DNA from: Methanobacteriota archaeon
Lineage (GTDB): Archaea; Thermoplasmatota; Poseidoniia; Poseidoniales; Poseidoniaceae
Assembly: GCA_011522915.1 (NCBI GenBank)
Contig: WTIA01000073.1
Location: forward strand, 1 to 37,393
Direction: 5' to 3'
Length of the DNA stretch: 37,393 nucleotides
A model generated the notes under the pieces. The model worked only from the letters and a program-made list of their open reading frames with translations, was not told the origin of the DNA and ran no database searches. Below, piece after piece: positions 1,975-4,014 of this stretch (its first letter is position 1; each line of letters begins with the position of its first letter). The position numbers were made by a program, and so were the translations under genes.

Positions 1975-3366
1975 TCATTCCTTTCGAGGTCGGCGCTTTT
2001 TCTTCTTGGCGTCTTCTTCCTCTTCAGCAAGAGCACGCAATTCACGAGCAGATTTGCCACCGGGTTTACCGCCGGATTTTCCTTTATTGTCACGGTTTTG
2101 AGGTTTAGAGACATCGACCTTGATATTGCGTCCCATGAAGTCGCTGCCGTTGAGTTTGCTAACGACTTCTTCACCCTTTGATTCAGGCTGGATGGTAACG
2201 AATGCGAATGCCTTCTTACGGCCAGATCTATCTGTTGCCCACTGGACATGAACAGTGTCACAGTGGTCTTTGAACAGGGCTGACAAGTCATCTTCAGTGG
2301 CTTTGAATGGAAGATTACCAACGTAGAGTCTAGCTCCTTGTGGTCTTGGTGCACGTTTCTTTTTGTCTTCTCTTGGAGCATCGGCATCTCTAACACCGAT
2401 TCTTCGACCCTTGATTTTCTGACCGTCCAAAGCCGCAATTGCAGCGTCAGCCATATCTTTAGATGCAAATGTGATGAAACCGAATCCTCGGAGATTGCCA
2501 TCATCATCACGCATCAATGCGAAATCTGTGACCTTTCCGTGTTTCTTGAACATGTCACGAACTTCATCTTCTTCAGCATCTCTAGATAGTCCGCCGATGA
2601 AGAGTCTGCAACCTGGTGCTGCTTTTTCTCTGCGCCCACGGCCACCTTGGCCACCTTCACCTTCGAATCTGAAGTACTCGCGCTCTCGACCATCTTCACG
2701 AATGTCTTCAGCGATGAAGGTAGCACGACCTGCACTACCCTTTGCGAACAGTGCTTCGGCTTCTCCGCTCCAGCGCTTACCTGCGCCATTCATTGCAGCC
2801 TTTCCAGCTTCTCCCCCAAAATCATCGGCAAGAGCGCGGAATGATTTGTTGCCACAAGTTCTGCAAACAACGTTCCAATCTCCGTTTAATTCAGCTTCGA
2901 AAGTATCGCCACACGGCGGGCACAGTGCCCATAGAACTCCACAGTCATCGTCTTCTCGCATGTCGATTCGAATTACGTTTCCAGCCTCTAGCACCTTTGC
3001 TCTAACGATGTCACGGCGACGTAGTCCGTCCGCAGTGTTGTGAAGGAATCTGTCCGTGATTTTGGTTACGTGGAATTGGGCATACTCTTGGTCTGCCATA
3101 ACCGAGCGATTTGGCTTTCCTTCAACACTGATGATTCTGATTTCACCAGATTTTTCGTTGAGTTTGACGACCTCTCCAATTACGGTATCTCCGACTTGAA
3201 CACGCAACATTTCGTTGTAAGTATTGACGCTAATTACGCCATCAATTTCGCTAACAACGCCTGTTAGTAATGCGATTAGGTTGCCGTTTTCTTCTGCTGT
3301 ACCCTTACCAGGGCTGTTCTTATCTGCAGTTCCTACTACAGTTCCGGGGGTGACGATTGTCGCCAT
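1975..3366 (-). CDS. Exosome Csl4-like subunit (S1 + zinc ribbon) fused to two RRM domains and a basic tail
   Basis: 463 aa. N-term PGTVVGTAD...GTAEENGNLIALLTGVV, S1-like QVGDTVIGEVVKLNEKSGEIRI, zinc ribbon CPPCGD...CRTCGN. RRM1 has LFIGGL and RGFGFITF; RRM2 has LYVGNL and KKAFAFVTI. Tail is KKKKRRPRKE. Confidence 0.9.
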   Translation of the reverse strand: MATIVTPGTVVGTADKNSPGKGTAEENGNLIALLTGVVSEIDGVISVNTYNEMLRVQVGDTVIGEVVKLNEKSGEIRIISVEGKPNRSVMADQEYAQFHVTKITDRFLHNTADGLRRRDIVRAKVLEAGNVIRIDMREDDDCGVLWALCPPCGDTFEAELNGDWNVVCRTCGNKSFRALADDFGGEAGKAAMNGAGKRWSGEAEALFAKGSAGRATFIAEDIREDGREREYFRFEGEGGQGGRGRREKAAPGCRLFIGGLSRDAEEDEVRDMFKKHGKVTDFALMRDDDGNLRGFGFITFASKDMADAAIAALDGQKIKGRRIGVRDADAPREDKKKRAPRPQGARLYVGNLPFKATEDDLSALFKDHCDTVHVQWATDRSGRKKAFAFVTIQPESKGEEVVSKLNGSDFMGRNIKVDVSKPQNRDNKGKSGGKPGGKSARELRALAEEEEDAKKKKRRPRKE

Positions 3367-3453: not shown

Positions 3454-4014
3454 TCATCGGGTGAAACGCCAACATTTGATCTCGGTAGCACCCATTCTTG
3501 AGTTGTGGTGTTGGTAAGTTGCTGGCATCCTGAACTCTCCTTGAAGGATGACTTCGCCATCTGGCAAATGAGTCGCTGCGGCGCTATGCATCATGTGTAC
3601 TACCGGTGCAGATTCTAGAGCTGAATCGATGAAAGCACGGTCTGCACCGTGAGTCTGGACCCCCCAAGGTGGATTTGTAATTACGATGTCAACCTTTGGC
3701 AATTCTATTTCGCCAACTCTTCCTGTGATTGTCGGTCCGAGTTTTTCACAAAGTTTTGCAGCGTCTTTATCGCACTCAACGAATGTTACCTCTGCCCCCA
3801 ATAATTGGGCTCCATGTCCCAATATGCCATTACCTGCGCCTAAGTCTAGAACCGTTTTCCCATCCAATCCATCATGGGCATCGATTTGTGCAAGCCAAAG
3901 TGCCGCCAAGTCTCCTTCTGTTTGATATTGTTCGAGTTCGACACTATTACAGGGGTGGCTAGGCAGTTTTGACAATTTAATCGCCAATTGGCGAAGCTTC
4001 AATCCAATCACCAA
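3454..4014 (-). CDS. METTL5-like / COG2263 RNA methyltransferase
   Basis: 186 aa; SAM motif VLDLGAGNGILG, catalytic NPPWG, N-term LEQYQTEGDLAALWL. Confidence 0.85.
   Translation of the reverse strand: MVIGLKLRQLAIKLSKLPSHPCNSVELEQYQTEGDLAALWLAQIDAHDGLDGKTVLDLGAGNGILGHGAQLLGAEVTFVECDKDAAKLCEKLGPTITGRVGEIELPKVDIVITNPPWGVQTHGADRAFIDSALESAPVVHMMHSAAATHLPDGEVILQGEFRMPATYQHHNSRMGATEIKCWRFTR

Follow-up and report, generated by a model that had tools for sequence, protein, structure and literature searches.

A Csl4 exosome subunit fused to RRM domains in the archaeal order Poseidoniales

The window analyzed here, a stretch of 37,393 nucleotides from a Poseidoniaceae contig (WTIA01000073.1), carries on its minus strand a csl4-rrm fusion gene (P0001; positions 1975 to 3366, stop codon included) whose 463-amino-acid frame runs uninterrupted from ATG to stop. 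In the encoded protein, a Csl4 module is followed by a 70-aa linker, two RRMs, and a basic tail; some 280 residues, comprising a linker box and the RRMs, lie beyond the point at which Csl4 usually ends. All features described below are on the same strand, as are the neighboring genes, which are given as context only: a small-domain methyltransferase gene upstream (3454 to 4014; PF05175) and a radical SAM protein gene downstream (235 to 1965; PF04055). An earlier note on this DNA had pointed to positions 2107 to 2613, which correspond to aa 252 to 420, that is, to the two RRMs.

The Csl4 module occupies aa 4 to 185 (2812 to 3357) and consists of an N-terminal ECR1_N domain (Pfam PF14382; aa 4 to 39, E = 5e-9), an S1-type barrel, and a zinc ribbon. 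The Csl4 equivalog model of NCBIfam, NF034126, matches it full-length and over the cut-off (aa 4 to 183, 108.5 bits; cut-off, 90), and a profile search with this part finds the archaeal exosome Csl4 AF_0206 (PDB 2ba1_A; E = 3.8e-20). The same structure ranks first in a Foldseek search with the predicted model (E = 1.3e-13), a match that holds at the domain level only, model confidence being moderate. The identification of this region as Csl4, originally made by eye, is thereby borne out by both sequence model and fold. The zinc ribbon, defined by alignment as C149-C152-C168-C171 (2854 to 2922), is complete in the window protein; in six close relatives (L002 to L007), its fourth cysteine (window aa 171) is replaced by Asn. 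The window genome has a single Csl4-model match, and no second, unfused Csl4 was seen in the Poseidoniales genomes surveyed, where second Csl4-model matches per genome are read as Rrp4 without a one-by-one check. The best explanation is that the window protein is the genome's one genuine Csl4, a cap subunit of the archaeal exosome, into which it would be expected to assemble.

RRM domains are typical of eukaryotes. In the window protein, the Pfam model RRM_1 (PF00076) scores 122 bits against a gathering score of 20.7 and resolves into two domains, RRM1 at aa 255 to 323 (2398 to 2604; 78.4 bits) and RRM2 at aa 347 to 416 (2119 to 2328; 51.3 bits), so the tandem RRMs claimed from the letters are recovered by an independent model. 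Their RNP2 and RNP1 motifs had been called near-perfect, which holds as quoted for LFIGGL and RGFGFITF of RRM1 and for LYVGNL of RRM2; the RNP1 of RRM2, KKAFAFVTI, is slightly off consensus, with G changed to A and the last aromatic to I. The stacking aromatics at RNP2-2, RNP1-3, and RNP1-5 are present in 108 of 108 fused RRMs (48 RRM1, 48 RRM2, and 12 from the sister family f2, introduced below), some of the loci being near-copies of each other. These invariant aromatics speak strongly for RNA binding by the RRMs, without indicating which RNA. Profile matches of the RRM pair include poly(A)-binding protein, nucleolin, and hnRNP A1/A2B1, the closest solved relative by sequence being poly(A)-binding protein (6r5k; E = 2.9e-46), and the RRMs also match the NCBIfam model Rbp_regulator (110.6 bits; cut-off, 100). 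In the predicted model, RRM1 has an RRM-like order of strands and helices, and the RRM half finds RNA-bound hnRNP A2/B1, HuR, and Sxl as fold matches, ranking after 2ba1_A.

Between the two halves lies a conserved linker box (aa 192 to 238; 2653 to 2793), delimited by alignment and profile. Its consensus, LNxxGxRWsxeAE...aDxR, extends over about 47 aa and directly follows Csl4 in both families of the order, with its N, RW, D, and R unchanged across ten representatives drawn from the two. The box has no Pfam match, and its profile finds strong matches, among 15 genomes, only in fusions and in one extra copy (genome G023); that it is a known domain is ruled out on these grounds. It is predicted to be disordered and passes into a flexible Gly/Arg-rich stretch (aa 237 to 251; 2614 to 2658), pLDDT in the linker being below 50. 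The protein ends in a tail (aa 436 to 463; 1978 to 2061) in which the aligned motif GK(S/T)xREL.A..EEE.DAKK precedes a Lys/Arg run; both the Gly/Arg-containing linker and the Lys/Arg-rich tail had been noticed earlier and are indeed there. The tail motif is kept in the window's family beyond mere basic character and is a possible docking motif; a helix is predicted at aa 440 to 454 with low confidence. The AlphaFold model itself, built with 21 sequences, has a mean pLDDT of 64 (about 80 in the RRMs) and a pTM of 0.30, such that the relative placement of the domains is unreliable.

Could the fusion be an artefact of assembly? The earlier note proposed a true in-frame fusion and named misassembly, a lack of RRM hits, which the Pfam result above already answers, or absence from close relatives as what would undo it. 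Of 22 related loci, all taken from independent genome records (carrying the organism names Euryarchaeota, Poseidoniales, or Poseidoniaceae), 21 have the fusion whole and in one frame, in close and distant relatives alike and in independent MAGs as well as two single-amplified genomes (L014 and L015). Within the genus, and where dS can be estimated, dN/dS is about 0.01 to 0.13 for Csl4, linker, and RRMs, with both RRMs at about 0.01 to 0.1 and thus as low as the Csl4 part; the values are rough, dS being saturated in several comparisons. All three parts are under strong purifying selection. A misassembly, frameshift, or chance open reading frame can point to a single record, a MAG (L012) in which the fusion is split by a frameshift, and has next to no chance of being the explanation against the intact records, the single-cell genomes among them, the order-wide occurrence described next, and the selection on the protein; misassembly and frameshift are ruled out by the independent assemblies.

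The phyletic survey covered the Thermoplasmatota and four archaeal control genomes. Of 194 Poseidoniales genomes, 191 have a Csl4 match, and 146 of the 150 Csl4 matches listed for the order sit in frames of at least 400 aa (median, 472). Among the other four, which are shorter, are one at a contig edge (G084) and one whose frame is broken, its RRM lying in the following frame (G091). RRM_1 gave a match in 96 of 97 Poseidoniales genomes. Among 100 RRM frames, 77 share contig and frame length with a Csl4 match among those listed, 17 come from genomes without Csl4 among the matches listed, and the remaining 6 are the G084 and G091 pieces, a copy in G023, and three short frames (G029 and G066). 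Because RRM frames coincide with Csl4 frames in this way, RRMs in the Poseidoniales occur almost only on Csl4, and the fusion is present in nearly all genomes sampled. The G023 copy (contig C27; L127) is a second linker-box-RRM half of the f2 type, in a 332-aa frame without Csl4 among the matches listed, and could represent either a duplicate strain contig or a paralogue that has been truncated.

Outside the order, the picture is different. Csl4 ends at about aa 184 to 190 and is unfused where checked; the longest of the apparently long frames (511 aa; G214, L126), which is the one checked, was set aside as an upstream read-through with Csl4 as its C-terminal end. RRMs occur in 104 of 293 Thermoplasmatota genomes, of which 81 belong to the order and 6 to a sister family within its class, the other 17 lying elsewhere, and every RRM frame outside the Poseidoniales is stand-alone and 81 to 158 aa long. 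The remark that RRMs are uncommon in archaea agrees with these counts: RRMs turn up in 23 of the 211 genomes from the rest of the phylum and in 0 of the 4 control genomes. Five distant Thermoplasmatota genomes (G202, G212, G226, G231, and G259) have a stand-alone RRM and no Csl4 over the cut-off, for which exosome loss or incompleteness is a possible reason. Viral contigs were scanned as well, and no relative turned up.

Within the order, the fusion comes in two forms. Every complete protein examined from the window's family (f1) has two RRMs, in the order Csl4, linker box, Gly/Arg stretch, RRM1, RRM2, and motif-bearing tail; those of the sister family (f2) have exactly one, in the order Csl4, the same linker, a treble-clef zinc finger, one RRM, and a basic tail. 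The zinc finger (PF23477; 49.1 bits) stands in the place of RRM1 in L054 and other f2 loci, and a degenerate RRM1 at that site, which we also considered, is thereby ruled out. The gene order methyltransferase-csl4-radical SAM is common to both families, 15 outgroup loci have the methyltransferase gene next to an unfused csl4, and the window's csl4-rrm therefore sits in the orthologous position, in the gene context of unfused Csl4. Given the shared linker box and the kept gene neighborhood, the data fit a single in-place fusion in the common ancestor of the Poseidoniales, after which the arms would have diverged. In an RRM tree of 77 columns, weakly resolved, the fused RRMs fall apart from stand-alone RRMs, and the f2 RRM tends to join most RRM2s, RRM2 not forming one group; dating the fusion by this tree was dropped, as so few columns resolve too weakly.

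The rest of the exosome is in place in the order. RNase_PH genes, usually as a tandem pair, occur in 78 of 79 Poseidoniales genomes, and one locus (L107) has the gene order SBDS-like, Rrp4, Rrp41, Rrp42, the last three forming an operon and named by best NCBIfam matches that fall below those models' cut-offs. DnaG-size Toprim proteins occur in 57 of 60 Poseidoniales genomes. The DnaG of the window genome scores 368 bits (cut-off, 300) and begins with MKY, which we read as the likely counterpart of the RNA-binding residues K6-Y7 of Sulfolobus DnaG. The window genome, 77.6% complete, gave no match for Rrp41, Rrp42, or Rrp4, which we take as missing contigs; 5 of 5 sampled genomes of the same genus have three RNase_PH genes. 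The RRMs have thus been added to an exosome that the order otherwise retains, rather than taking the place of one of its parts, and a replacement of DnaG in particular is ruled out as a simple account, DnaG being kept together with its N-terminal KY motif. Two loci (L124 and L125, in G036 and G047) encode a bacterial-type RNase PH besides Rrp41 and Rrp42; that of L125 matches TIGR01966 of NCBIfam with 245.7 bits (cut-off, 141.5).

What might such a protein do? We posit, as the probable reading, that the RRMs form a cap-tethered arm that would capture RNA for the exosome, with both RNA binding and assembly putative. By analogy with the Csl4 family, the N-terminal domain would anchor the fusion on the Rrp41/Rrp42 ring, the S1 barrel would line the entry, and Csl4 would hold DnaG. 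The linker box and Gly/Arg stretch would act as a long flexible tether, at the end of which the tandem RRMs (in f2, one RRM and a zinc finger) would bind single-stranded RNA, concentrating it locally around the entry pore. In this model, the exosome would better bind, degrade, or tail a chosen class of RNA, and a cap could carry up to three such arms. In Sulfolobus, Csl4 is anchored to the ring by its N terminus and does not itself bind poly(A) strongly (PMC4227792). An artificial Csl4-NT, in which the N-terminal domain (NTD) of DnaG was placed on the C terminus of Sulfolobus Csl4, binds poly(A) strongly, and its complex was the most efficient RNase complex among those compared (PMC4227792). 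Our reading draws on this precedent because the design is the same, a C-terminal RNA-binding arm on a flexible tether.

Other readings of the same protein deserve weight. The arm could serve mainly the reverse reaction, holding A-rich tails or the 3' ends of rRNA so as to serve tailing and quality control, and in this way giving Csl4 the role that DnaG and Rrp4 have elsewhere. This is in part a sub-case of RNA capture and, taken as the main role, it is the less likely account, if one to be kept in mind. It draws on the closeness of the RRM pair to poly(A)-binding protein and on the finding that rRNA tailing in Sulfolobus is made possible by DnaG (PMC4227792); yet the retained KY terminus of DnaG means that poly(A) recruitment is already covered, and likeness to poly(A)-binding protein does not fix an RNA preference when the pair matches nucleolin and hnRNP proteins strongly too. 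Is it possible instead that the RRMs are a general RNA chaperone or stress module, like cyanobacterial Rbp, acting partly off the exosome? The Rbp_regulator match and the stand-alone RRMs of a sister lineage would suit this idea, but we consider it improbable given that the RRMs are fused in both families and hardly ever separated, that the alignment has no conserved internal start codon ahead of them, and that the linker box is conserved together with the fusion.

A slightly more doubtful proposal still is that the RRMs dock a protein partner not yet known, such as a helicase or the ribosome, and so recruit the exosome indirectly. RRMs can have proteins in place of RNA as their ligands, with a precedent in NEXT, where the RRM of RBM7 binds the protein ZCCHC8 (PMC5322736), and the linker box and the C-tail motif are conserved as binding motifs are. 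Docking alone, however, would not need the stacking aromatics that are invariant in class across the 108 domains, and capture of RNA by the RRMs remains the reading that we prefer.

Poseidoniales are abundant ocean archaea, and to our knowledge little is known of how archaeal exosomes choose their substrates. The cap specificity described so far is the preference of Rrp4 and DnaG for A-rich RNA (PMC4227792). The earlier note knew of no described Csl4-RRM fusion, and we likewise found no description of one, or of an exosome or RRM from Poseidoniales or marine group II, in the titles, abstracts, and term counts of openly licensed literature, although one may exist elsewhere. Each of the two domain families is familiar, and what would be new is their combination, fixed through an order. 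A lineage-wide, natural fusion of this kind offers a reader domain on the exosome that is defined and can be tested; f1 and f2 amount to a natural domain-swap experiment. We speculate, tentatively and at somewhat less than even confidence, that the order may have hard-wired sequence-selective substrate choice into the exosome cap by means of a swappable RNA-reader arm (RRM-RRM or zinc finger-RRM), which would be the archaeal counterpart, in cis, of the RRM adaptors that serve the nuclear exosome of eukaryotes.

How does the fusion compare with known systems? The Csl4 of Archaeoglobus (AF_0206, PDB 2ba1) is the same module end to end, but known archaeal Csl4 proteins end at about aa 180 to 190, whereas the window protein continues with the linker box and RRMs. 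The RRM_1 family is held in common with cyanobacterial and bacterial Rbp and with the stand-alone Thermoplasmatota RRMs, which occupy short frames of their own, whereas here the RRMs are joined to Csl4. In eukaryotes, adaptors such as RBM7 (with an RRM) in NEXT and PABPN1 in PAXT steer the exosome to chosen RNAs (PMC5322736). NEXT and PAXT are separate complexes that act in trans with MTR4, whereas the Poseidoniales RRMs sit on a cap subunit; the fusion is a loose cis analogue, likened by analogy, with no homology found beyond the RRM fold, and the comparison suggests that RRM-exosome coupling arose separately in archaea and eukaryotes. The nearest parallel in design, Csl4-NT, likewise bears an RNA-binding domain on the C terminus of Csl4 and demonstrates that an arm of this kind can function on an exosome; it was engineered with the DnaG NTD, whereas the Poseidoniales fusion is natural and order-wide, uses RRMs, and keeps DnaG besides.
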